From: Promicromonospora sp. MEB111
GTDB taxonomy: Bacteria > Actinomycetota > Actinomycetes > Actinomycetales > Cellulomonadaceae
Length of the DNA stretch: 64,000 bases
Assembly (NCBI RefSeq): GCF_030209445.1
Contig: NZ_JARVSD010000001.1
Span: 62,001-126,000, forward strand
Direction: 5' to 3'
Shown here: one piece after another, positions 7,025-56,237 of the stretch
Layout: every line of letters starts with the position of its first letter
Position numbering within the stretch: the stretch's first letter is position 1
The notes under the pieces: generated by a model
Told to the model about the DNA's origin: nothing
The model's input: only the letters and a program-made list of their open reading frames with translations
Databases searched by the model: none
Made by a program: the position numbers and the translations under genes

Positions 7025-7072
7025 TTGGCGGGGCCACGGTACCGCTGGTCGCGGGAGGTGCGGAAGCCTGCT

Positions 7073-7140
7073 CACCTTCGAGGCCCGAGTTTCTTCGCTT
7101 TCAGGCTGCTGAAAGCGAAGAAACTCGGGCCTCGAAGGTG
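7073..7140. terminator. Perfect 32-bp palindrome (family GAGTTTCTTCGCTTT), second copy
   Basis: Arms 7073-7104 and 7109-7140 are exact inverted repeats around GCTG. It lies 20 bases beyond the stop of the oxidoreductase gene and upstream of the riboswitch leader, so it should terminate the oxidoreductase transcript. The inner arm and loop match 2177-2234 except for single paired changes (e.g. TTTGAG/CTCAAA here TTTCAG/CTGAAA), which keep the stem intact. Confidence 0.8.
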
Positions 7141-7159
7141 ACCGGGAGGGAGGGTCAGG

Positions 7160-8164: not shown

Positions 8165-8212
8165 ACGTGTCAGACGCTCAGGTCACCCGAGGGACCTGAG
8201 CGTCTGACACGT
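8165..8212. terminator. 20-bp palindrome (family GTGTCAGA..GGTC), copy 1
   Basis: Arms 8165-8184 and 8193-8212 are exact inverted repeats with loop ACCCGAGG. It lies 16 bases beyond the stop of the M6 protease gene, where it can end that transcript, and just upstream of the oxidoreductase start. The outer arm GTGTCAGACG and inner CAGGTC match the copies at 34341, 36518 and 51425. Confidence 0.75.
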
Positions 8213-14253: not shown

Positions 14254-14352
14254 GCCGGAGGGGCGGGAGACGTGCGGCCGGCCGTCAAGCCGTAGGCAGG
14301 GCCCCCTGGGGCCCGTGAGCGAGGCCGGCCGCACGTCTCCCGCCCCTCCGGC
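14254..14352. repeat. 30-bp-arm palindrome with GGGCCCC inner hairpin, intergenic copy
   Basis: Arms 14254-14283 and 14323-14352 are perfect inverted repeats; the 39-base loop holds a second hairpin, GGGCCCCCTGGGGCCCGTGA at 14299-14318. The inner sequence matches the element inside the helicase gene (28663-28682) at 19 of 20 bases, whereas the arms are unrelated. It lies between the convergent phosphatase-like gene and livF, where it can terminate both. Confidence 0.8.
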
Positions 14353-14369
14353 GGGCGGAACCACAACGA

Positions 14370-15134
14370 TCAGGACGCCTTGTCGACGTCCTCCGCCAAC
14401 GTGCCCAGGTACAACGAGATCACCTTCGGGTCCGACTGCAGCTCCTTGCCCGTCCCCGTGTAAGCGTCCTTGCCCTGGTCCAGCACGTACCCCCGGTCGC
14501 AGATCTGCAGGCAGCGCCGGGCGTTCTGCTCGACCATCACCACGGACACACCCGCCTTGTTGATCATCCGGGTGCGCAGGAACGTCTCGTCCTGACGCAC
14601 CGGCGACAGCCCGGCGGACGGCTCGTCGAGGAGCAGCACCGACGGGTTCATCATCAGTGCGCGGGCCATGGCGACCATCTGCCGCTCACCGCCCGACATG
14701 GCGCCCGCACGCTGCGCGCGCCGCTCGCCCAGGGTGGGGAACAGGTCGGTGATGAACTCGAACCGCTCGGCGAACACCTTGGGCCGCAGGTACACGCCCA
14801 TCCGCATGTTCTCCTCGACGGTGAGCGAGGGGAACACGTTGTTGTTCTGCGGCACGAACCCGACACCCTGCGACACGAGGCTGTTCGCCTTGTGGTTGGT
14901 GATGTCCTCGCCGCCCAGGGTCACGCTGCCGGAGCGGACGTGGACCAGGCCGAACAGGGACTTCAGCAGCGTGGACTTGCCGGCGCCGTTGGGGCCGATG
15001 ATGCCCACGAGCTCGCCCTTGGCGACCTCCAGGTTGCACCCGTTCAGGATGTTCACACCCGGCAGGTACCCGGCCACGATGTCGGTCGCCTTGAGCAGGA
15101 TCTCCCGCTTCTCGGTCTTGGCCGCGTCGTTCAT
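14370..15134 (-). CDS. livF: Branched-chain amino-acid ABC transporter ATP-binding protein LivF
   Basis: This 254-residue ATPase has Walker A GPNGAGKST at about 48-56, signature MSGGERQMVAMARAL, Walker B VLLLDEPSAGLSP and the H-loop region MVEQNARRCL (glutamine replaces the usual histidine, as in many LivF). With LivG it drives uptake of leucine, isoleucine and valine through LivH/LivM. The ATG overlaps the livG stop (ATGA). It is last in the livHMGF operon. Confidence 0.93.
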   Translation of the reverse strand: MNDAAKTEKREILLKATDIVAGYLPGVNILNGCNLEVAKGELVGIIGPNGAGKSTLLKSLFGLVHVRSGSVTLGGEDITNHKANSLVSQGVGFVPQNNNVFPSLTVEENMRMGVYLRPKVFAERFEFITDLFPTLGERRAQRAGAMSGGERQMVAMARALMMNPSVLLLDEPSAGLSPVRQDETFLRTRMINKAGVSVVMVEQNARRCLQICDRGYVLDQGKDAYTGTGKELQSDPKVISLYLGTLAEDVDKAS

Positions 15135-16153
15135 CGCTTCTCCTCCTCGGCCTCGAGCCGGGCCAGCACTGCGGGGTCGAGCAGCGAGTCGTCCCCGAGG
15201 TCGGTGTCGTGGTGCGCACCCAGGTAGGCGTCGACGACGGCCTGGTCCTGCATGACGGACTTGGGCGGACCCTCGGCGACGATCCTGCCCTCCGCCATGA
15301 CCACCACCCAGTCGGAGATGTGCCGCACGGCGTGCATGTCGTGCTCCACGAACAGCACGGTCATGCCGTCGTCGCGCAGGGCCTGGATGTGGTGCAGCAG
15401 CGACTGCACCAGGGCCGGGTTCACGCCGGCCATGGGCTCGTCGAGCATGATCATGGTCGGGTCCGTCATCAGGGCCCGCGCCATCTCCAGGAGCTTGCGC
15501 TGACCGCCGGACAGCGAGCCGGCGAAGTCGTCCTTCTTGGTGTCGAGCTTGAACCGCGCCAGGATCTCGAGCGCCTTCTCGGTGTTGCGCTTCTCGGTGC
15601 CCGCCCACAGCGGCTTCACCAGGGAGCCGAAGAGGTTCTCGCCCGGGTTGTCCATCGCGGCGAGCAGCATGTTCTGCAGCACCGTCAGGCGCGACAGCGC
15701 CTTGGTGAGCTGGAACGTGCGGACCATGCCGTTGCGCGCCACCTTGGCGGCGTTGACGCCGCCCAGCGACCTGCCCTCGAAGGACCACGAGCCCTGGTTG
15801 GGCTTGTCGAAGCCTGTGAGCAGGTTGAAGAAGGTCGTCTTGCCGGCGCCGTTCGGGCCGATGAGGGCCGTGATGACGCCGCGCTGGACCTCCAGGTGGT
15901 CGACGTCGACGGCGGTCATGCCACCGAACCGGCGCTGCACGTCGTCGACGAGCAGGATCGGGTCCGGCTTGCTCACGCCGACCTTCGGCTCGACCGCGGC
16001 CAGGACGTGCTCCGCGGCCTTGGCGGCCTCGGTGTCGCTGCGCTCGACGGTCTCGAGCGCCTCGACGGTGCTCGCGGGCACGTCCGTCGCCTCGGCCGCC
16101 TCGGGCACGTCGGTCACCTCGGCCACCTTGTTCTCTGTCGTCTCATCGGACAT
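15131..16153 (-). CDS. livG: Branched-chain amino-acid ABC transporter ATP-binding protein LivG
   Basis: This 340-residue ATPase has Walker A GPNGAGKTT, LSGGQRKLLEMARAL and MIMLDEPMAGVNP followed by FVEHDMHAV. LivG is normally about 250-260 residues; the excess is an acidic, Ala/Glu/Thr-rich N-terminal extension of about 60 residues and an acidic C-terminal tail (LARLEAEEEKR). The start overlaps livM by 11 bases. The extension is low complexity and no function is evident. Confidence 0.92.
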   Translation of the reverse strand: MSDETTENKVAEVTDVPEAAEATDVPASTVEALETVERSDTEAAKAAEHVLAAVEPKVGVSKPDPILLVDDVQRRFGGMTAVDVDHLEVQRGVITALIGPNGAGKTTFFNLLTGFDKPNQGSWSFEGRSLGGVNAAKVARNGMVRTFQLTKALSRLTVLQNMLLAAMDNPGENLFGSLVKPLWAGTEKRNTEKALEILARFKLDTKKDDFAGSLSGGQRKLLEMARALMTDPTMIMLDEPMAGVNPALVQSLLHHIQALRDDGMTVLFVEHDMHAVRHISDWVVVMAEGRIVAEGPPKSVMQDQAVVDAYLGAHHDTDLGDDSLLDPAVLARLEAEEEKR

Positions 16154-26505: not shown

Positions 26506-29500
26506 TCAGGCGCCGATGAGGCGGAGGAAGCCGCCCAGCTCCATGAGGTGGCGTACGCCGTCGGCCTCCAGGTCGCCGGGCAGGTAGTCGGTGAGGCGGG
26601 GAGACGAGACCACGACGGCCCGCCACTGCGCGCGCGACACCGCCACGTTGATGCGGTTGCGCGCGAGCAGGAAGCCCATCCCGCGGGAGACGTTCTCGGG
26701 GGCCGAGGCGGCGAGCGTCAGGATCGCCACCGGCGCCTCCCGGCCCTGGAACATGTCGACGGTGCCGACGGGCACCCCACCGAGGCCTGCGGCGCGCAGG
26801 GCGTGGCGCACCGTGTGCACCTGCGCGTTGTAGGCCGCGACCACCACGACGTCGTCGGGGCCCAGCGGCCGGGCCGGGCGCCCGGCTCCTGGGTCCCACG
26901 TGCGGCCGACGAAACCCTGCACCTGGCGCACCACCTCGTCGGCCTCCTCCCGGGACGACGTCGAGCGCCCCTCGTGGACCACCGGGACGTGCACCACGCC
27001 GGGGACCACGCCGTCGAGCGAGCGCTCCGTCGTGACGGGGTGCGCCGAGAGCCGGCCGGCGTAGGAGAGCTGGGACACGGCCGCGCAGACCTCGGGGTGC
27101 ATCCGCCAGGACTCGGGCAGCAGGTACCCGAGGCCGTCGGGCAGCACGGAGCTGCCGGCCGCGAGCCACGCGAGCGCCGACTCGTCCACCGGCTCGGGGT
27201 GCCGGCCCTGGCTGACCTGCGGAAGCTGCTGCGGATCGCCGAGCAGCAGGAGGCGCTGGGCGGCCCGGCCGACGGCGACGGTGTCGGCCAGCGAGAACTG
27301 CCCGGCCTCGTCGATCACGAGCAGGTCCAGCCCCTCGTCGGGCCAGCGCTCGTGCGCGAAGTCCCAGGCGGTGCCGCCCACCACGCAGCCGCCGGCGCTG
27401 CCGGCGGCGAAGTCCGCGAGCTGGCTGCCCGTCAGCTCCTGCCACGGGCCGGCCGGCTCCCTCTCGACACCCTTCGCCCGCTGCTTCTTGGCGACGACGT
27501 CGACGGATACGCCCGCCTTGTCGACGAGGCAGCTCAGCAGGTTCTCGACCGCCGAGTGCGACTGCGCGACGACACCCACCCGCCAGCCGGCGTCGACCAG
27601 CCGGGCGACCACGTGCGAGCCGACATGCGTCTTGCCGGTCCCAGGCGGGCCCTGCACCGCGAGGTACGAGTGGTCGAGCCGCTCGACGGCGGCGAGCACC
27701 GTGGCCTCGAGGTGGAGCCCGCCGACGTCTCCCCCACCGGTCGCGCCGGTGAGCTCCGGCAGGTCCCCGCCGCGCCGCCCCGTCGACGGGTCGATCAGCC
27801 GTGGCGGGCGGCGGCACAACAGGTCGACGGCGGCGCCGTCGGGCAGGGTGCGGTCCGCGTCCCACGCGGCGAGCGCCGCACGGGCGGCGTCCTCGGTCGC
27901 CCGCTCCTGCGCGTCGTGCGCGGGCCCGCGCTGCGGGGCGAGGGCGACGGGCGCCTGGTCGTGCGGTTCCGCTCCCCCGGAGAGCCGCTCGCGCAGGACC
28001 ACAATGTCGCGGCCCCGGAGCGCGTTGTCGCTCTCGGGCTCCTCGCGGACCGCCAGGATCGCGCCGCCGGAGTGCTCGCCGCGCACGGCCCGTGCCTCCA
28101 GCTCGCCGACCACCGGTGGCACCGGCTGGTCGTACAGGAGGTGCACCGCGTCGCCGACACCCAGGTCGGACCCGTCGATGCGGGACCCGTCGAGCATGCG
28201 GCCCACCAGCTCGACCTCGCGCGAGGGAAGCCGGTCCCGACCCACGACGCTCCAGTCCCGCAGCATGCGCGAACGTTCCACGTGGAACGTCGACCGTCGG
28301 CCGGGCCACTCGTCCAGCGGCAGCTCGAGCCGCGCGAAGTGCTCCTGCCAGAACGGCTTCTCCTCCCGCTGGTAGTACCCGACGGCCGCGCCCAGCAGCG
28401 CGAGCGCTTGCACCTCCAGTGACCGCTCCCCCCGGTTCTCCCCGACCCGCTCCGCGATCTCCCCCGCCAGAGCCAGCCGCCGCTCCCGCCCCTCCCGCCG
28501 AGCCAACCCCCGCCCGGCCGCCGCTTCCCCGTTCCCCCCGCCCCCGGGCTCAGGCGCCCCACCCCCGCCAGACGAGGACTCACCACCCCCGGAAGGCGAC
28601 CCGACCGCGAAGGCCGTGGGAAGCGAGACCCCGCGCGCGGATGTATCGGTTCCCGAAGTGGAGGGCCCCTTGGGGCCCGTGAACGCATCCGCGCGCGGGG
28701 TCTCGCTTCCCACGGCCGCCCCGACCACACCACCCGAAACAGGCCCGACCACCCCCCGCGCGAACCGCAACCAATCCAACAACCGCAACGTCGACCGACA
28801 GTCGTACTCGTTGTAGTCCAAGATCCGCTGCCGCAGCTCCGCCGCCCGCGAGTCCCCCTCAGCTGCCAGCTTCGCGTACTCCGCGTACTCCGTGACCGAT
28901 GCCGTGGCGCTCGTGACACCTTCGCGCGCCGGATCGTCCTGCATGTAGAGCGGTTCGAGCTTCTTGATCGACTTCGACCGGTGGGAGATGCGCAGGGACG
29001 ACCGGACCACGGCGTAGAGGTCGACGAGCACGCCGTCGCGCAGGAGCTGGTCCACCTCGTCCTCGTAGACGCCGTGCCGCGCCGCGATCGAGAGCAGATG
29101 CGTCCGCTCGTAGGCGGCGTAGTGGTAGACGTGCAGGTCCGGGTGCTCCGCGAGCCGGGCGTGGAGATGGTCCACGAACCGCACGAGCGCGTCGCGCTCA
29201 CCCGCCAGGTCGTCGGCCCACAGCCCGTGGAAGGGCGGGTTGCCGCCGTCCGGACCGGGACGCTCGACCCAGCCGAAGAGGTAGTCGAGGCCCATGGCCG
29301 GCGCCTGGTCGTCGCCGGGCAGCCGCGCCTCCTCCCACAGGGGGTCCCCCTCGAAGTCGAAGAACACGTCGCCCGGGCTCGGTGGCGGGAGGCGATCGAT
29401 CGCCTCGGTCGCCACGAGCTGCCAGCGAAGCCGTGCGTCGGGCCCCTCCGGGTCGACGCCGTCGGGCAGGTGGTCGAGCGCGACCGAGCCGTCGCCGTCG

Positions 29501-30492
29501 TCCAGCCCGAGCTGGAGGCGCGCCTGGGCGCGCAGGCCCTCGAAGCGGCCCGCGGCCATGCCGTCCGGCGGGTCCTCGGCGGTCGCGAGCGCGTCGATCG
29601 TGGTGATGCCGGACGCGGACAGCCTGGCCCGCTGCGCCCCGTACACCCCACCGACGAGCAGCACGTCGCGGCTCTCGTGGGCCGCCTCGGCGCAGTCCGG
29701 GCAGTCGCGCAGCCGGCCGCAGGCCAGGTAGCGCTCGTCGTGCCAGCGCACGGGACCCGTGTCGGCGACGTGCTCGTCCAGGACCTCGATCAGCCGGGCG
29801 CGCCGCTTGCGGAAGACCGGCAGCAGGTCGGCGAGCCGGTGCGACGTGGTCTCGCCGGTGCCGAGCACGAGGTGCACCTCGTCGGTCGGGTCGATCCGCG
29901 CCGCCATCAGCTGGTCCGCGTACGCGGCGAGCTGCAGCAGGGCACGCACCTTGGTGCGGCGGGCGAGCTTGGAGTCGTGCACGGCGTACCGCGGCCGGGA
30001 GACGTGCGCCTCGGCGTGCCGGGGCCACTGCTCGGGCGGCACGACCCCGCCCGAGCCACCGAGGCGGACCGTCTCCCCCAGCAGGTCGCGCACCAGGAAG
30101 TCGGCCCGGCCGTGGAACCGCCCGTCGAAGAACGAGGCCTGGTAGACGACGTCCGCGCCCCGCTCCAGGGCGGCCAGGGTGCGGTCGTGCGCGTCGACCA
30201 GCTCGTCCCGTGCCATGCGGCGGGCGGGCGCGACCTCGAGCACCCCGCCGGGGCCGTCGCCGTCGGCCGGACCGAAGGTACGCAGGTGCCCGGCGAGGAC
30301 GCGGCGTTCGTGATCCTCACCGAGGGCCGCCGTGCGCGCGAGCATCTCGTCCTCCTCCCGCGCCCGGCGCGGGCTGCGGCCCAGGAGCTCGTCGAGGCGG
30401 CGCAGCAGGCGGAACTCGCACTCGCCCGCGACCACGAGGTCGCTGGCCGAGTGCACGAGCGTGCTGGCGTCGTCGCGCTCCAGGAGGAACAT
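26506..30492 (-). CDS. TM0106-type RecB-like nuclease / RNase H-like / SF1 helicase fusion
   Basis: This 1328-residue cytosolic protein combines three activities. The N-terminus (MFLLERDDASTLVHSASDL) is the TM0106-family RecB-like nuclease, ending in a cysteine cluster CGRLRDCPDC near 257-267 that may hold an iron-sulfur cluster. An RNase H-like domain begins VFFDFEGDP at about 374. The C-terminal half is an SF1 (UPF1/DNA2-like) helicase: Walker A GPPGTGKTH near 947, LLVIDEAGQFS near 1059, GDPQQLPQ, and RINVAVSRAQWR. A low-complexity insert at about 585-660 contains an in-frame palindromic element. The start is the first ATG after CTGGGGGC. Its role is probably DNA or RNA processing/repair; it has no partner genes. 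Confidence 0.88.
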   Translation of the reverse strand: MFLLERDDASTLVHSASDLVVAGECEFRLLRRLDELLGRSPRRAREEDEMLARTAALGEDHERRVLAGHLRTFGPADGDGPGGVLEVAPARRMARDELVDAHDRTLAALERGADVVYQASFFDGRFHGRADFLVRDLLGETVRLGGSGGVVPPEQWPRHAEAHVSRPRYAVHDSKLARRTKVRALLQLAAYADQLMAARIDPTDEVHLVLGTGETTSHRLADLLPVFRKRRARLIEVLDEHVADTGPVRWHDERYLACGRLRDCPDCAEAAHESRDVLLVGGVYGAQRARLSASGITTIDALATAEDPPDGMAAGRFEGLRAQARLQLGLDDGDGSVALDHLPDGVDPEGPDARLRWQLVATEAIDRLPPPSPGDVFFDFEGDPLWEEARLPGDDQAPAMGLDYLFGWVERPGPDGGNPPFHGLWADDLAGERDALVRFVDHLHARLAEHPDLHVYHYAAYERTHLLSIAARHGVYEDEVDQLLRDGVLVDLYAVVRSSLRISHRSKSIKKLEPLYMQDDPAREGVTSATASVTEYAEYAKLAAEGDSRAAELRQRILDYNEYDCRSTLRLLDWLRFARGVVGPVSGGVVGAAVGSETPRADAFTGPKGPSTSGTDTSARGVSLPTAFAVGSPSGGGESSSGGGGAPEPGGGGNGEAAAGRGLARREGRERRLALAGEIAERVGENRGERSLEVQALALLGAAVGYYQREEKPFWQEHFARLELPLDEWPGRRSTFHVERSRMLRDWSVVGRDRLPSREVELVGRMLDGSRIDGSDLGVGDAVHLLYDQPVPPVVGELEARAVRGEHSGGAILAVREEPESDNALRGRDIVVLRERLSGGAEPHDQAPVALAPQRGPAHDAQERATEDAARAALAAWDADRTLPDGAAVDLLCRRPPRLIDPSTGRRGGDLPELTGATGGGDVGGLHLEATVLAAVERLDHSYLAVQGPPGTGKTHVGSHVVARLVDAGWRVGVVAQSHSAVENLLSCLVDKAGVSVDVVAKKQRAKGVEREPAGPWQELTGSQLADFAAGSAGGCVVGGTAWDFAHERWPDEGLDLLVIDEAGQFSLADTVAVGRAAQRLLLLGDPQQLPQVSQGRHPEPVDESALAWLAAGSSVLPDGLGYLLPESWRMHPEVCAAVSQLSYAGRLSAHPVTTERSLDGVVPGVVHVPVVHEGRSTSSREEADEVVRQVQGFVGRTWDPGAGRPARPLGPDDVVVVAAYNAQVHTVRHALRAAGLGGVPVGTVDMFQGREAPVAILTLAASAPENVSRGMGFLLARNRINVAVSRAQWRAVVVSSPRLTDYLPGDLEADGVRHLMELGGFLRLIGA
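28527..28567 (-). other. Potential G-quadruplex sequence in the helicase coding strand
   Basis: On the coding (minus) strand there are runs GGGGGTGGGG, CCCGGGGGCGGGGGG and GGGG within about 40 bases, enough for an intramolecular quadruplex in DNA or mRNA. It encodes Gly-rich linker and lies 45 bases from the palindromic element. Confidence 0.4.
28612..28717 (-). repeat. In-frame palindromic element A inside the nuclease-helicase gene
   Basis: Arms 28612-28643 and 28686-28717 are perfect 32-bp inverted repeats around a 42-base loop that holds an inner hairpin (GGGCCCC-TT-GGGGCCC at 28663-28678). In gene sense it encodes PRADAFTGPKGPSTSGTDTS followed by ARG. The loop matches that of 55053-55094 at 40 of 42 bases. 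It lies in the linker between the RNase H-like and helicase parts and keeps the frame open. Confidence 0.9.
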
Positions 30493-30636
30493 GCCCCCAG
30501 GTCTACCAGTGACCTCTGACACGAGCGCGCTACTGTCGCTCCCACACGCGGGAGAAATGTCCGGCATGGCCAGTGGTTCTGGCGCCGACCCGCCTGCATG
30601 GCCGATAGTGGGGCCGACCGTATCGAAGGAGCAACC

Positions 30637-31818
30637 ATGCCCGTGCGCTTCAACCCGCCTCCGGGTTGGCAGGTGCCCCCGGGATTCCGACCCGACTCCA
30701 CCTGGGCTCCCGACCCGTCGTGGCCTCCGGCCCCGCCCGGTTGGGACTACTGGGTCGACCGCCCCGACGCCCCCCAGCCCGATTCCGGACCCACGGGTGC
30801 CGCACCGCCGGCGCCCCTCGCACCACCAGCTCCCCCGGCACCGCCGGCTCCCGTCGGCGGCCCGGACGGGGGTGCCGACACGAGGACCGTCGCGATCCAG
30901 GTGATCGACGCTCCCGCCCGCCATCCGGCGCCCGCGCCCTCGGCGCCGCCCGCCATGGCCCCCGCGGACGCGATGGGCTCGACCATGACGATGGCGCCCA
31001 TCGGCGCCCCGCCCGCCGCGGGACCGCCCCGGCCGGGCTCCGGGCCGCAGCCCGTCTACCCACCGCAGTCCGGGATGGCGCCACCGCCCCCGCCGCCCGA
31101 GGCCAAGAGCCCGGCGTCAGGCGTGCTCGCCGCCCTCAAGGGGCTCGGCGGCCGGAAGGCGACGACGCCTGCCGCCGCAGGCCCCGAACCACGGCCGGGC
31201 GCCGCCGGTCCCGGCCCGCTGAGCATCGACGACGCGCACCGCCGACCGGGCGGCTCCGTCCCCCTCGGCACCGTGGCGCCCGGGCCCATGGGCGCCGGCC
31301 GGCGCCCCGGCGGCCCGTCGCGCCAGAGCGGCTCGCGCCCGCCGGGCGCCGGGCTCATGGTCGCCATCGGCATAGCCGGGCTCGCGCTGGGTGTGATCAT
31401 CGGCGTGGTCGTCACGGCCGGTCAGCAGGCCGACGCGAACCAGGCCATCTCCGACGCCCAGAACATCAGGTCGCAGATGGACGAGGCGCGCGCCGAGATC
31501 GAGGCCGACCAGGCGCAGGTCGACAAGCGCCGCGACGAGGTGGCCGAGCGCGAGAAGGCGCTGGGCGACCGCGAGGCGCAGGTCAAGGAGCAGGAGGCCG
31601 CGCTCAAGCAGCAGCAGGAACAACAGCAACAGCAGCAGGAACAGCAGGAGCAGGAACAGGAGGAGAACGGGAACGGAAACGGCAACGGGACCGTCTTCTA
31701 CTGGAACTGTGACGCCGTACGCGCCGCGGGCGCGGCGCCCCTGCCCAACACGGCGCCCGGCTACCTGCCGCACCTCGACCGGAACGGCAACGGCATCGCC
31801 TGCGAGGACGGCGAGTAG
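30637..31818 (+). CDS. Membrane protein with coiled coil and C-terminal Excalibur domain
   Basis: This 393-residue protein begins with a Pro/Trp-rich cytosolic region (PPPGWQVPPGFRPD, PPGWDYW) and a long Pro/Ala/Gly-rich tract. One membrane segment (GLMVAIGIAGLALGVIIGVV) lies near 245-265, followed by a Glu/Gln-rich coiled coil that becomes poly-Gln and an Asn/Gly run. The C-terminus is an Excalibur calcium-binding domain (YWNCDAVRAAGAAPL, DRNGNGIACEDGE). Start at 30637 follows GAAGGAG; an upstream ATG at 30598 has no site. It is probably exposed at the cell surface; function unknown. Confidence 0.85.
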   Translation: MPVRFNPPPGWQVPPGFRPDSTWAPDPSWPPAPPGWDYWVDRPDAPQPDSGPTGAAPPAPLAPPAPPAPPAPVGGPDGGADTRTVAIQVIDAPARHPAPAPSAPPAMAPADAMGSTMTMAPIGAPPAAGPPRPGSGPQPVYPPQSGMAPPPPPPEAKSPASGVLAALKGLGGRKATTPAAAGPEPRPGAAGPGPLSIDDAHRRPGGSVPLGTVAPGPMGAGRRPGGPSRQSGSRPPGAGLMVAIGIAGLALGVIIGVVVTAGQQADANQAISDAQNIRSQMDEARAEIEADQAQVDKRRDEVAEREKALGDREAQVKEQEAALKQQQEQQQQQQEQQEQEQEENGNGNGNGTVFYWNCDAVRAAGAAPLPNTAPGYLPHLDRNGNGIACEDGE

Positions 31819-34340: not shown

Positions 34341-34396
34341 AAGCACGTGTCAGACGTACAGGTCACAGGGGTGACCTGTACGTCTGACACGTGCTT
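34341..34396. terminator. 26-bp palindrome (family GTGTCAGA..GGTCAC), copy 2
   Basis: Arms 34341-34366 and 34371-34396 are exact inverted repeats around AGGG, 12 bases beyond the stop of the module-2 membrane protein. The core GTGTCAGACGTACAGGTCAC is identical to copy 4 at 51426-51445. Confidence 0.8.
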
Positions 34397-36517: not shown

Positions 36518-36563
36518 CGTGTCAGATGTACAGGTCACCCAGGTGACCTGTACATCTGACACG
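36518..36563. terminator. 22-bp palindrome (family GTGTCAGA..GGTCAC), copy 3
   Basis: Arms 36518-36539 and 36542-36563 are exact inverted repeats with a 2-base loop, ending 2 bases before the stop codon of the ATPase gene. Compared with copies 2 and 4 it has GATGTAC for GACGTAC with the matching change in the other arm. Confidence 0.8.
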
Positions 36564-51427: not shown

Positions 51428-51467
51428 GTCAGACGTACAGGTCACCCCTGTGACCTGTACGTCTGAC
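51428..51467. terminator. 18-bp palindrome (family GTGTCAGA..GGTCAC), copy 4
   Basis: Arms 51428-51445 and 51450-51467 are exact inverted repeats around CCCT, directly after the GH76 stop. The outer end CGTGTC/GACGTG is slightly degraded compared with copies 2 and 3. Confidence 0.78.
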
Positions 51468-51532
51468 GTGGCAGGGACTCCGGCGGGAGCGCGCGGCAAA
51501 TCATCTTGCCGTTCCTGGGAGAATGGGGCGTT

Positions 51533-54500
51533 GTGAGTACCGAGCCCTCCTCCACCCCCGTGTCCGACGGCGATCACGGTCGCCCGGGCGGAGGCCGGAA
51601 CCGTCGGCGCGGCCCGGGCAGGCGGACGGACAACCAGAACCGCCGACCGCGCCGCGCCGGGCCGCAGCGCGTCACCGCCGCGCAGCTCGAGGCAGCGGCC
51701 GCCAAGCGCGCCGCCGTCGAGATGCCGCCCATCACCTACCCGGCACAGCTGCCCGTCTCGGCCCGGCGCGAGGACATCGCCGCGGCGATCCGGGACAACC
51801 AGGTCGTGATCGTCGCGGGCGAGACCGGCTCGGGCAAGACCACGCAGATCCCCAAGATCGCGCTGGAGCTGGGGCGCGGCCGGACGGGCCAGATCGGCCA
51901 CACCCAGCCCCGCCGCCTGGCCGCGCGCACCGTCGCGGAGCGCATCGCCGAGGAGCTCGGCACGCAGCTCGGCGGCGTCGTGGGCTACCAGGTGCGGTTC
52001 ACCGACCAGTCCAGCGACGAGACGCTGGTCAAGGTCATGACCGACGGCATCCTGCTCGCCCAGATCCAGCGCGACCCGCAGCTGCTCGCCTACGACACGA
52101 TCATCATCGACGAGGCGCACGAGCGGTCCCTCAACATCGACTTCCTGCTCGGCTACCTCTCGCGGCTCCTGCCCCAGCGGCCCGACCTCAAGCTGATCAT
52201 CACGTCGGCCACCATCGACTCCGAGCGGTTCGCCGGCCACTTCTCCCCCGCGGCCCTGGCCGCGCGGGGCGGCGCGCCCGAGTACGTCACCGACGTGCTG
52301 CCGGACCTCGCCCCGATCGTCGAGGTGTCCGGCCGCACGTTCCCGGTCGAGATCCGGTACCGGCCGCTCTCGCCGGACGAGGGTGAGCCGGGTACGGACG
52401 GCGACCGGCCGTCGTCGGCCCGCGACTCGGGCGGCCCCAGGAAGAAGGGCAAGGCGCGCGGTGAGGACGAGAAGGACCTCGTCACCGGCATCATCGAGGC
52501 CTGCGACGAGCTGATGCGGGAGGGCAGCGGCGACATCCTCGTGTTCCTCTCCGGCGAACGCGAGATCCACGACGCCGCCGACGGCCTCGCCGGCCACCTC
52601 AAGGAACGCGCGCGCGACCCGAAGCACCCGCAGCACGTCGAGATCCTGCCGCTGTACGCGCGGCTGTCGAGCGCGGAGCAGCACCGGGTCTTCCAGCAGC
52701 ACGCCTCGCGGCGCATCGTGCTGGCCACCAACGTCGCGGAGACGTCGCTGACCGTCCCGGGCATCCACTACGTCGTGGACCCCGGCACCGCGCGCATCAG
52801 CCGCTACTCCAAGCAGACCAAGGTGCAGCGGCTGCCCATCGAGCCAGTGTCGCAGGCGTCCGCCAACCAGCGCAGCGGCCGCTCCGGCCGTGTCGCCGAC
52901 GGCATCGCGATCCGCCTCTACTCCGAGGAGGACTTCGACGGGCGGCCGGAGTTCACCGAGCCCGAGATCCTGCGCACCTCCCTGGCGTCCGTGCTGCTGC
53001 AGATGATCTCGGTCGGCGTGGTCAGCACGCCCGACGACGTCGCCCGGTTCCCCTTCGTCGAGCCGCCGGACACGCGCGCGATCCGCGACGGCGTGCAGCT
53101 CCTCACCGAGCTGGGCGCGCTGGAAGTGATCGCCGACGGCGGCCCTGGCGGCAGCAGCATCACACAGCTCACCGAGGTGGGCCGCACGCTCGCGCAGCTC
53201 CCGATGGACCCGCGCCTGGCGCGCATGGTCATCGAGGGATCGCGGCACGGCGTCGCCCGCGAGGTCGCGATCGTCGCGGCCGCGCTCTCGATCCAGGACC
53301 CCCGCGAGCGCCCCGCCGAGCAGCGCGCGCAGGCGGACCAGCTGCACGCCCGGTTCGCCGACCCGCGCTCCGACTTCCTCACCTATCTCAACCTCTGGGA
53401 GTACGTGCGGGAGCAGCAGCACCTGCTGTCCAGCTCCGCGTTCCGGCGGCAGTGCAAGGCCGAGTACCTGAACTTCCTGCGCATCCGCGAGTGGCAGGAC
53501 GTCGTGGCGCAGCTCCGCGAGATGGCCAAGCCGCTGGGCATCGAGATGTCGTTCCAGCCCCGGCACCGGCGTCCGACCGATGCCGCGCCACCGGAATCGG
53601 CGGAGGATGCGGTCGAGCCCGCGCCGGCGTCGTACCGGCAGACCTGGGACGACGACACCATCCATCGGTCGCTGCTGGCCGGGCTCCTGTCGCAGCTCGG
53701 CATGCAGGACACCGGGGAGGTCAAGGCCTCCGCCGTCGCGCACCTGCGGGGAGCCCAGCGCGAGATCGCGCTGAAGCGGGCGAAGAAGCAGGCGCGCAAC
53801 GAGTACATCGGCGCCCGCGGGGCGCGGTTCGCGATCTTCCCCGGGTCGCCGCTGTCCAAGAAGCCGCCGGTGTGGATCATGGCGGGCGAGCTGGTGGAGA
53901 CCAGCCGCCTGTGGGCGCGTGACGTCGCACGGATCCAGCCGGAGTGGGCCGAGGAGCTCGCCGGGCCGCTGGCGAGGCGCACCTACTCCGACCCGCACTG
54001 GTCCACCAAGCAGGGCGCCGCGATGTGCACCGAGAAGGTGCTGCTGTACGGGGTGCCCATCGTGTCCGACCGTCGCGTGCTCTACGCGAAGGTCGACCCC
54101 GAGGCGGCACGCGAGATGTTCGTGCGGCACGCGCTCGTGCAGGGCGAGTGGACCACGCACCACCGGTTCTTCCACGACAACCGCGCCCTCCTGGAGGAGG
54201 CGGGCGAGCTCGAGGCCCGCTCCCGGCAGCGCGGCCTGGTCGCGGACGAGGACGACCTCTTCGCCTTCTATGACGAGCGCGTCCCCGACTCGGTCGTATC
54301 CGCCGCGCACTTCGACCGCTGGTGGTCGCGGGCGCGCAAGGAGACGCCGGACCTGCTCACCTTCACCATGGAGCAGCTCGTCGGCGACGCCTCCGTCGAC
54401 ACCGCGCAGTTCCCGGAGACCTGGCCGCAGGGCGAGCTCTCCCTGCCGCTCACCTACCAGTTCCAGCCCGGGTCCGACGCCGACGGCGTCACCGTGCACA

Positions 54501-56176
54501 TCCCCGTGGCCGTGCTCGCCCGCGTGGTGCCGGACGGGTTCGACTGGATGGTGCCGGGGCTCCTCGAGGAGCTGACGGTCGCCACCATCAAGTCGCTGCC
54601 CAAGACCGTGCGGCGCGAGCTGGTGCCGGCGCCCGACGTGGCGCGCGACGTCGTCGCCTGGCTGCGCGCCGAGACCCCTGCCTGGGAGGACATCGCGCGG
54701 GCCGGCGACATGGCGGAGCCGTACACCGTCGCGTTCACGCGGGCCGTGCGCGCGCTGCGGGACGTCGTGGTGCCCCCCGAGGTGTGGGACGACGAGCGGG
54801 TCTCACGGCTGCCGCGGCACCTCCGGGTCACGTTCCGCGTGGTTGAGGAGCGCGGGCGGGGGCGGTCGGCGTCTGCTGTGGTGCTGGACGAGTCGAAGGA
54901 TCTGGTGCTGCTGCAGCGCAAGCTGGCGTCTCGGGCGGAGGCTGCTGTGCGGTCGGCGGTGCGGGGTGCGGTCGGTGCGGCGTTGGCGGAGGCTCGGGCT
55001 GCTTCGGCCAGGGCTGGAGCGGGCGCGGACGACGCAGACCCTCGCGCGGACGCGTTCACGGGCCCCAGGGGGCCCTCCACTTCGGGAACAGATACGTCCG
55101 CGCAAGGATCTTCTTCCTCTCCGGGCTCCGTTGGTGCGTCGCCCTCTGTGGTGGGGGCTCGGGGCTCCCGCGGTGGAGTGGGTGGCGGGGGTGTCGACGG
55201 GGTTGTTGTCGGGGAGCAGGGTGGGCTGACCTCGTGGCCCTCAGGGCTGCCCGACGGCGGGGTGTTGCCCGGGTCGGTGGCTACCGATGTGGGGGCCGGG
55301 GTGGTGGTGCGGGGGTTCCCGGCGCTCGTCGAGGAGGTCGCGCCCAAGGTGAAGGGGCAGGCGCGGACCGTCGGTGTCGCGTTGCGGATCCTGGCCGACG
55401 AGAACGCTCAGGCCTCCGCGCATGCCGCCGGTGTGCGCAGGCTTCTGGTGTCGGAAGCAGCGCTCGGGACCGGGCGGATCACGTCGCGCTGGACAGGGAC
55501 GCAGTCGCTGACGCTCGCGGCGTCGCCGTATCCGAGCACCGAGGCGCTCGTGGCGGACCTGCAGCTCGCGGCCGTCGTCTCGCTGACGTCGCCGGCGGAC
55601 GAGGCGCGGTACGACACGCCCACGGGCGGGCCGGACGCCGCCTCGGTGCGGTCGGCGGCGCAGTACGCGGACGCGCTCGCGTTCGTGCGGCGGCACCTGG
55701 AGGACGAGGTGCACCGCGTCGTCGGGCACGTGGTCGCCGCGCTGTCGGCGAGCCGGACGCTCGAGGCGGAAGTCCGCGCGTCGGGCAGCCTCGCCCTGCT
55801 CAACACGCTGCAGGACATCCGCGAGCACCACGCGAGCCTGATCCACGACGGGTTCGTATCGGCGACGCCGCCGCGGCGGCTGCCGCACCTGGCGCGCTAC
55901 CTGCGGGCGGACTCGCACCGGCTGACCAAGGCGACGGAGAGCCCGGCGCGCGACTCGGACCTCGCCTGGCGGATCGGCGACGTGACCTCCGCCTACGAGA
56001 AGGCGCAGGCCACGTACGCCGCGGGCGCCCCCGACGCCGCCCGCGCCGCCGAGCTCGCCGAGGTGCGCTGGATGCTGGAGGAGCTGCGCGTCTCGCTGTT
56101 CGCGCAGCAGCTCGGCACGGACGGCCCGGTCAGCGAGAAGCGGATCCGGAAGGTGCTGGCGCCGGGCGGGTGGTGA
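51533..56176 (+). CDS. hrpA: HrpA-type DEAH-box ATP-dependent RNA helicase
   Basis: This 1547-residue protein has an N-terminal basic tail, a DEAH helicase core with GETGSGKTT near 97, TQPRRLAARTVAERIAEEL, IIDEAHERSLNIDFLLGYL near 190, ITSATID, ATNVAETSLTVPGIHYVVDPG and QRSGRSGRVADG, then the helicase-associated and C-terminal DUF3418 regions. It unwinds RNA or ribosome-bound mRNA in the cytosol. The C-terminal part carries a low-complexity insert at about 1155-1250 with an in-frame palindromic element and altered codon use. Start: GTG at 51533 with GGGAG upstream; TTG at 51506 is less likely. Confidence 0.93.
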   Translation: MSTEPSSTPVSDGDHGRPGGGRNRRRGPGRRTDNQNRRPRRAGPQRVTAAQLEAAAAKRAAVEMPPITYPAQLPVSARREDIAAAIRDNQVVIVAGETGSGKTTQIPKIALELGRGRTGQIGHTQPRRLAARTVAERIAEELGTQLGGVVGYQVRFTDQSSDETLVKVMTDGILLAQIQRDPQLLAYDTIIIDEAHERSLNIDFLLGYLSRLLPQRPDLKLIITSATIDSERFAGHFSPAALAARGGAPEYVTDVLPDLAPIVEVSGRTFPVEIRYRPLSPDEGEPGTDGDRPSSARDSGGPRKKGKARGEDEKDLVTGIIEACDELMREGSGDILVFLSGEREIHDAADGLAGHLKERARDPKHPQHVEILPLYARLSSAEQHRVFQQHASRRIVLATNVAETSLTVPGIHYVVDPGTARISRYSKQTKVQRLPIEPVSQASANQRSGRSGRVADGIAIRLYSEEDFDGRPEFTEPEILRTSLASVLLQMISVGVVSTPDDVARFPFVEPPDTRAIRDGVQLLTELGALEVIADGGPGGSSITQLTEVGRTLAQLPMDPRLARMVIEGSRHGVAREVAIVAAALSIQDPRERPAEQRAQADQLHARFADPRSDFLTYLNLWEYVREQQHLLSSSAFRRQCKAEYLNFLRIREWQDVVAQLREMAKPLGIEMSFQPRHRRPTDAAPPESAEDAVEPAPASYRQTWDDDTIHRSLLAGLLSQLGMQDTGEVKASAVAHLRGAQREIALKRAKKQARNEYIGARGARFAIFPGSPLSKKPPVWIMAGELVETSRLWARDVARIQPEWAEELAGPLARRTYSDPHWSTKQGAAMCTEKVLLYGVPIVSDRRVLYAKVDPEAAREMFVRHALVQGEWTTHHRFFHDNRALLEEAGELEARSRQRGLVADEDDLFAFYDERVPDSVVSAAHFDRWWSRARKETPDLLTFTMEQLVGDASVDTAQFPETWPQGELSLPLTYQFQPGSDADGVTVHIPVAVLARVVPDGFDWMVPGLLEELTVATIKSLPKTVRRELVPAPDVARDVVAWLRAETPAWEDIARAGDMAEPYTVAFTRAVRALRDVVVPPEVWDDERVSRLPRHLRVTFRVVEERGRGRSASAVVLDESKDLVLLQRKLASRAEAAVRSAVRGAVGAALAEARAASARAGAGADDADPRADAFTGPRGPSTSGTDTSAQGSSSSPGSVGASPSVVGARGSRGGVGGGGVDGVVVGEQGGLTSWPSGLPDGGVLPGSVATDVGAGVVVRGFPALVEEVAPKVKGQARTVGVALRILADENAQASAHAAGVRRLLVSEAALGTGRITSRWTGTQSLTLAASPYPSTEALVADLQLAAVVSLTSPADEARYDTPTGGPDAASVRSAAQYADALAFVRRHLEDEVHRVVGHVVAALSASRTLEAEVRASGSLALLNTLQDIREHHASLIHDGFVSATPPRRLPHLARYLRADSHRLTKATESPARDSDLAWRIGDVTSAYEKAQATYAAGAPDAARAAELAEVRWMLEELRVSLFAQQLGTDGPVSEKRIRKVLAPGGW
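55037..55110 (+). repeat. In-frame palindromic element B inside hrpA
   Basis: Arms 55037-55052 and 55095-55110 pair over 16 bases with 2 mismatches; the 42-base loop holds the inner hairpin GGGCCCC-AG-GGGGCCC-type core. It encodes PRADAFTGPRGPSTSGTDTS then AQG, 21 of 23 residues identical to element A in the nuclease-helicase gene and in the same frame and orientation. Base changes in the arm (GGATG/CATCC in A, GGACG/CGTCC in B) compensate. Confidence 0.9.
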
Positions 56177-56181
56177 GGCTC

Positions 56182-56229
56182 CACGACGGAGGGGCGGGGT
56201 GCGGATGTCCGCACCCCGCCCCTCCGTCG
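56182..56229. terminator. 23-bp bidirectional terminator hairpin
   Basis: Arms 56182-56204 and 56207-56229 are exact inverted repeats with a 2-base loop, between convergent hrpA and the ChW-repeat gene, 5 and 8 bases from their stops. Confidence 0.85.
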
Positions 56230-56237
56230 TCCGGCGC

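Follow-up and report, generated by a model that had tools for sequence, protein, structure and literature searches.

The window analysed here is a stretch of 64,000 nt from Promicromonospora sp. MEB111 (genome of 6.23 Mb; the genus is represented by 13 genomes). Three copies of a long palindromic unit lie in it and a fourth was found on another contig. The features concerned are:

26506..30924, minus strand: RecB-like nuclease (TIGR03491, residues 237-719) joined to a helicase; host gene of copy 1
28612..28717, minus strand: copy 1, with arms 28612-28643 and 28686-28717 and loop 28644-28685 (42 nt, type a)
51506..56176, plus strand: HrpA RNA helicase (TIGR01967); host gene of copy 2
55037..55110, plus strand: copy 2, with a 42-nt type-a loop and partly decayed arms, in frame in hrpA
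56183..56230, no strand assigned: loop-less hairpin with 23-bp arms, 6 nt 3' of the hrpA stop codon; a comparison case and not a member
14370..15788, minus strand: ABC-transporter ATPase ORF upstream of copy 3, missed by one gene-calling run
14254..14352, minus strand: copy 3, with 30-bp perfect arms and a 39-nt variant of the type-b loop
G000:C20:20503-20607, another contig of the same genome: copy 4

Copy 1 is a palindrome of 106 nt (32+42+32) with perfect 32-bp arms, whose predicted RNA fold has -94.4 kcal/mol (z -11.7). It is in frame in the nuclease-helicase gene and makes up residues ~736-771, between the nuclease and helicase parts. Copy 2 accounts for residues ~1178-1202 of HrpA; this part of the protein is a variable linker that falls within the DUF3418 match. 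It retains a 17-bp arm with 2 mismatches, and its outer pairing is mostly gone. In five other Promicromonospora genomes, 31 or 32 of the 32 positions of the hrpA copy are paired (derived from scores of 29 and 32); judged from its hrpA homologues, copy 2 would in its complete form extend over ~55021-55126. The sequence-only reading had set out from the likeness of these two inserts, and its figures were reproduced: the 69-base core is identical at 61 positions, the 23-residue peptide at 21 and the loops at 40 of 42. The shared frame and orientation, the compensating arm change between the two copies and the location of both in linkers hold as well.

Copy 3 is located 17 nt 3' of the stop codon of the minus-strand ORF 14370-15788 and is co-directional with it. 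Stems with a score of at least 16 occur 15 times in the window, versus 0 in three first-order Markov controls of it. Our RNA-model search scored 150 of 15332 candidates, so the four copies of this genome are a lower bound.

Extent and anatomy of the family

Further copies were collected with a degenerate pattern of the loop, which favours conserved loops. We obtained 119 distinct loop matches, of which 113 have arms and 6 do not (4 of the latter outside the host's genome-taxonomy family). All 113 arm-bearing copies fall in this family; after repeats of one copy had been removed by comparing inner arm and loop, 105 distinct copies remained. The proposal of a dispersed palindromic repeat that is tolerated in linkers stands.

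The pattern matches 35 of the 221 genomes and 6 of the 25 genera of the family, with 0 to 29 copies per genome as counted by this one pattern, while the reversed pattern, used as a control, matches none of the 221. A scan of one genome per species (84,980 species) gave 106 matching stretches, 102 in six genera and 4 elsewhere, without arms; no record named Rickettsia was among them. These six genera are Promicromonospora, Isoptericola, Krasilnikoviella, Myceligenerans, Puerhibacterium and Xylanimonas, all listed under Promicromonosporaceae. When up to 2 mismatches were allowed in 297 genomes of the order, matches outside the family numbered 35, versus 48 for the reversed control, and a wider spread was rejected within the reach of this pattern, which, having a fixed spacing, missed copies of other spacing, including the two of the own genome.

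The unit has a median length of 102 nt (5-95% range 89-106, 105 copies). Its loop measures 37-43 nt in 104 of the 105 copies; the arms have a median of 30 bp, are 28-34 nt long in 92 of 105 and show 0, 1 or 2 mismatches in 96 of 105. Two loop types can be distinguished, type a (CGTTCAC..CTCCACTTCGGGA) and type b (TCGCTCAC..CTCCGCTACGG). A third variant, TCACGGGCGCTGCGCGCCCTGCACTTCGC, was seen at four places in two genomes (G152 and G153). Both within and between genes, the base before the unit is C in 73% of copies and the base after it T in 68-73%, and the unit is often flanked by C on the left and TC on the right (+1,+2). These boundaries were set where pairing stops, hence the two bases cannot form a pair. 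Position-specific arm bases occur close to the loop and again about 24 nt away from it. Together with the boundary bases, they indicate that the unit comprises both arms.

Six loci were searched against Rfam, and no family scored above its threshold; the hits below it were miRNA-type models and one viral model, on the long hairpins. The number of viral contigs was zero, and a phage origin was rejected on this ground.

Placement behind stop codons and inside linkers

Genes were called by GC phase for this analysis. By these calls, 75 of the 105 distinct copies are intergenic and 30 lie in genes; 27 of the latter are credible, L055, L084 and L092 having been dropped because of weak ORFs. A co-directional gene precedes 62 of 78 intergenic copies, and 55 of them lie within 60 nt of its stop codon; for the 75 distinct intergenic copies the latter number is 54. 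In convergent gaps, 33 of 39 copies are nearer to the co-directional stop (p 1.4e-5). The upstream genes form 28 families, several of which recur in different genera. Among those checked with profiles are glycerol kinase, SdhB, a Crp-like regulator, dTDP-glucose dehydratase, UppS, a YjgF-like protein and a hibernation factor; one further upstream gene is presumably rpoC.

Being a stable hairpin that closely follows the stop codon of a co-directional gene (55 of 78 intergenic copies), the unit resembles an intrinsic terminator. Copies with at least three T within 8 nt after the stem number 35 of 54 (co-directional), 10 of 21 (other intergenic) and 10 of 30 (in genes). The loop of about 40 nt differs from the optimum of 4 to 8 given for Escherichia coli terminators (PMC8269248, the portion available to us). 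From this observed placement, the unit is probably a hairpin terminator of the upstream gene.

The loop is one of several occupants of these seats. It was found behind glpK in 11 of 33 readable regions (36 in total), behind sdhB in 7 of 30 (35 genomes), behind rpoC in 4 of 16 (35 genomes) and behind crp in 9 of 27 that are clear, with 3 more variant or reversed (28 in total). Many of the other glpK, sdhB, crp and rpoC regions carry a hairpin without the loop. Hairpins of other families at the same gene ends show that hairpin turnover is general here.

The 27 in-gene copies are distributed over HrpA (11), GcvP (7), the nuclease-helicase (5) and a hydrolase/acyl-ligase fusion (4). These names were given by likeness to profile-checked members (one GcvP, one ligase member and the window genes). 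In the GcvP with copy L139, the element constitutes residues 493-527, at the junction of the profile matches 51-481 and 524-946; in the ligase with copy L164 it constitutes residues 365-394, between the matches 98-352 and 428-804. With the conserved TCACG as reference, the reading phase of the loop is 1 (11 copies) or 0 (7) forwards and 0 (8) or 1 (a single copy) backwards. In the HrpA linker, Promicromonospora has type a and Isoptericola type b, in a different phase.

The sequence-only reading had described a conserved peptide, and a linker peptide under protein-level selection would explain why 21 of 23 residues are common to the two window genes. This claim is contradicted by the four combinations of orientation and phase in the linkers of four proteins, by the intergenic location of 75 of 105 copies and by orthologues that lack the element. 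A selected peptide motif was therefore rejected and is hardly credible as an explanation. As far as can be judged from the sequences, the peptide is incidental and not what is conserved, and the in-frame copies are tolerated passengers.

Some details of these linkers may be added. In hrpA of G005 (L179), the site is that of the relatives and the outer arms are similar to theirs, but the loop is diverged, type-b-like and read in another frame. A further short in-frame repeat, VEPVET, occurs in the nuclease-helicase linker of L194, L198, L200 and L203, a linker that thus collects repeats. The assembly of G004 shows runs of N in both linkers (L186, L201), perhaps since long hairpins broke the assembly.

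Changes in arms and loop, and signs of copying

The arms mostly differ between loci, yet they remain paired. In an alignment of 52 copies, 98.7% of arm cells pair, compared with 41-48% for slid arms and 63.8% for shuffles. Cells changed on both sides number 632, all 30 arm pairs show some of them, and G-U cells number 7. In 12 orthologue groups with 65 copies (the sdhB copy L239 was not used for the divergence figures), arm divergence is 0.338 versus 0.131 for the whole loop. Two-sided differences outnumber one-sided ones by 1408 to 198 in these groups; these are pairwise comparisons and not events, and orthologues within a group are not independent. The hrpA group alone, which includes the decayed window copy, has 21 two-sided versus 25 one-sided differences.

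If a stem were selected at the RNA level, mismatched cells should be G-U more often than A-C, because a G-U pair still forms in RNA. The stems of all 105 copies (2520 cells) contain 47 A-C, 22 G-U and 42 other mismatched cells (p 0.0035). The missing G-U excess points to DNA copying between the arms rather than to selection in the transcript, and together with the two-sided changes it leads us to infer DNA-level copying of one arm onto the other. Template switching is the most likely route, a proposal that rests on these statistics and not on events seen. At the hydrolase/acyl-ligase linker, the loop of L156 is inverted relative to L044, L152 and L164. This may be a footprint of template switching; independent insertion would also explain it. 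On the element strand, A-C cells are about twice as frequent as G-U cells, a strand asymmetry.

The 30-position core of the loop, chosen by the pattern, has a divergence of 0.061 (two glpK copies, L265 and L276, were left out) and changes more slowly than the arms, with the caveat that the loop pattern was what found the copies. The closest group, three glpK copies, behaves oppositely (loop 0.071 versus arms 0.056). The 3' part of the loop is free to vary, and a 6-bp hairpin inside the loop covaries in 2 of its 6 pairs, with 37 cells changed on both sides. It is likely that the loop is constrained, but the ascertainment and the contrary glpK group keep this short of proven. Given the slower core, something may read the loop or copy it between loci.

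We could also observe orthologous hairpins that keep the outer arms and lack the loop: glpK of G220 (compared with G196), sdhB of G002 (compared with G003), crp of G163 and the nuclease-helicase of G005. Three of these four tips consist of a self-complementary word that is present in both arms, which fits a slippage deletion in a palindrome; in G163, two bases replace the loop. In the nuclease-helicase of G002, a single arm remains. The absence of the loop is thus probably a loss, with the direction inferred, since the HrpA tree (13 rows) has weak deep forks.

The clearest sign of movement is L031, an intergenic copy of G007. It matches the gcvP copy L033 at 93.6% over 94 nt and the gcvP copy L036 of the same genome at 90.5% over 95 nt, and the flanks are unrelated in both cases. 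These matches show, at the level of sequence comparison, that the whole unit was copied between unrelated places at least once. The L031 place was compared in 13 genomes (L329-L341). In G005 and G007 the element is present, enclosed in a longer palindrome; the hairpin of G012 shares the outer arms and has no loop, and the other ten genomes have other hairpins, as if terminators of different kinds replaced one another there. An ordinary hairpin type, GAACRCCGGCGGG..CCCGCCGGYGTTC, occupies this place in most genomes. Similar arms were seen in 18 further pairs, and in 12 of them the match is confined to 61-108 nt. A multi-copy repeat of about 330 bp in Isoptericola (L048, L053, L076, L078, L086, L093, L174) has the unit at its centre, surrounded by concentric CGAGGTAGT words on the left and ACTACCTCG words on the right. 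The L031 and Isoptericola cases suggest copying into hairpin tips. Like words (CGAGGTAGT/ACTACCTCG) were also noticed in the hairpins behind rpoC of G150 and sdhB of G001.

Mobility, which the sequence-only reading had considered, is thus supported as whole-unit copying, in one clear case and weaker ones, and not by any target duplication or mobilising enzyme. At the L031 place, element-free genomes carry other hairpins, and we found no target duplication. Orthologues without the element do exist; clean empty sites were absent from hrpA, the nuclease-helicase, glpK, sdhB, crp, rpoC and the L031 place, where the linkers are too divergent or another hairpin is present. The arm ends vary in sequence, which bears on any comparison with the conserved terminal inverted repeats of MITEs. 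The Y1 transposase (PF01797), the one transposase family searched, is found in 2 of 220 family genomes (G139 and G086), both with 0 copies by the loop pattern, and in 5 of 14 control genomes. Mobilisation of the REP/RAYT kind was rejected for this reason.

Possible explanations and related systems

With slightly more confidence than doubt, we favour a terminator-like, self-correcting palindrome that is tolerated in linkers like the palindromic elements of Rickettsia. The unit of about 100 nt is built from two complementary arms of about 30 nt on either side of a loop of about 40 nt, commonly with C before and TC after. Its usual seat is the 3' end of genes, in co-directional orientation, where it is probably the hairpin terminator of the gene. 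The arms would be kept near-perfect by renewal of one from the other in the DNA, with template switching during replication as the most likely route, and a putative factor would read the loop or copy it between loci. The in-frame copies in the linkers of HrpA, GcvP, the nuclease-helicase and the hydrolase/acyl-ligase fusion would be passengers. Orthologous hairpins can lack the loop and keep their outer arms, probably through loss, and the whole unit has at least once reached an unrelated place by copying. A bolder version, which we put forward tentatively and consider unlikely, is a palindrome that rewrites itself: template switching re-copies the arms, a putative family-specific factor binds the loop, and the unit persists at gene ends and inside genes, is copied to new places and is even flipped in place.

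It is quite possible, if doubtful, that the unit instead functions as RNA, as a terminator or a signal at 3' ends, with a loop bound by protein or RNA and a stem selected in the transcript. Its placement and orientation at 3' ends, the slow loop core, the covarying inner hairpin and the enrichment of T directly behind the stem all speak for this. Against it stand stems that have no G-U excess, in-gene copies in both orientations, orthologous hairpins that lack the loop and the Rfam result for six loci. We regard as rather unlikely a presently or recently mobile non-autonomous element, akin to a Rickettsia palindromic element or a MITE, that jumps whole by means of a putative enzyme. The variable copy number (0 to 29 per genome), the defined ends, the restriction of the L031 matches and of 12 of the 18 further pairs to the element, the L031 place with its element in G005 and G007 and other hairpins elsewhere, and the repeat of about 330 bp are what one would expect of it. 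On the other hand, positions are common to different genera, ectopic conversion could also account for the shared units, and neither target duplications, nor a Y1 transposase in any carrier, nor viral contigs were found. Mobility of the loop alone, by insertion into the tips of pre-existing hairpins, would explain why arms are locus-specific and why loop-less orthologues have the same outer arms (the four cases above and G012 at the L031 place). It is improbable, because arms are 28-34 nt long in 92 of 105 copies and have position-specific bases, the stretch shared by gcvP and the intergenic copy includes the arms, and three of the first four loop-less tips fit slippage deletion.

Palindromic elements of Rickettsia and Wolbachia are described as stem-loops of 105-146 bp that occur between genes and in frame in conserved genes, at sites common to orthologues, with different families at one site (PMC2229807, PMC3767692; this and the following comparisons refer to the portions of the cited papers available to us). 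The family described here resembles them in all these respects: its median of 102 nt is at the short end of their range of ~100-150 bp, and it has 27 in-gene copies in 4 protein families and 75 intergenic ones. This supports the parallel that the sequence-only reading had drawn. By description, not sequence, our family differs in that its loop is better conserved than its arms, which change in concert, and in its strong placement behind stop codons in a high-GC actinobacterial host family. A kept loop with rewritten arms does not appear in the descriptions examined (PMC2229807, PMC3767692). As that reading had supposed, no actinobacterial case was found in the literature, mostly outside subscription journals, on the host genera and palindromes, coding palindromes or concerted arms.

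Concerted arms have been reported for the long, perfect coding inverted repeats of Nematomorpha mitochondria, for which template switching was proposed (PMC6649704). The likeness extends to coding inverted repeats and concerted arms; in our case, members of a single loop family are spread through the genome, and a shared loop is unmentioned in that account. Template switching was also proposed for the stems of RNA hairpins, with two-sided changes and inverted loops as footprints (PMC8794818). Both are seen here, the latter in L156, but the helices in those RNA genes have 2 to 10 bases, whereas our stems of about 30 bp lie in and between protein genes. REP elements are likewise dispersed palindromes, some within genes, with a size of 20-40 bp, and CGTC REPs have no dedicated transposase (PMC3733652). 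Our units are longer and have no GTAG or CGTC end tag (they are flanked by C at -1 and TC at +1,+2), and unlike REP/RAYT systems, the carriers searched have no Y1 transposase.

With these repeats, protein-coding palindromes are now known from a free-living actinobacterial family as well, and the several phases and orientations show that the nucleic acid persists and not the peptide. As one loop sits on dozens of arm pairs, coding and non-coding, with orthologues at many distances, it becomes directly testable how long palindromes stay perfect, which is an old question. If the arms are re-copied by template switching, covariation, which commonly passes for proof of RNA function, would mislead here. 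Should the self-rewriting version be true, bacteria would have in this family a natural recorder of template switching.

Other hairpins were noticed in the window as well. A second dispersed family (GTGTCAGACGYNCAGGTCAC) with tiny loops is present at 8165-8212, 34341-34396, 36518-36563 and 51428-51467, and also behind glpK in several relatives. Two similar long intergenic hairpins, at 2177-2234 and 7072-7141, have arms of 27 and 33 bp and the loop GCTG.
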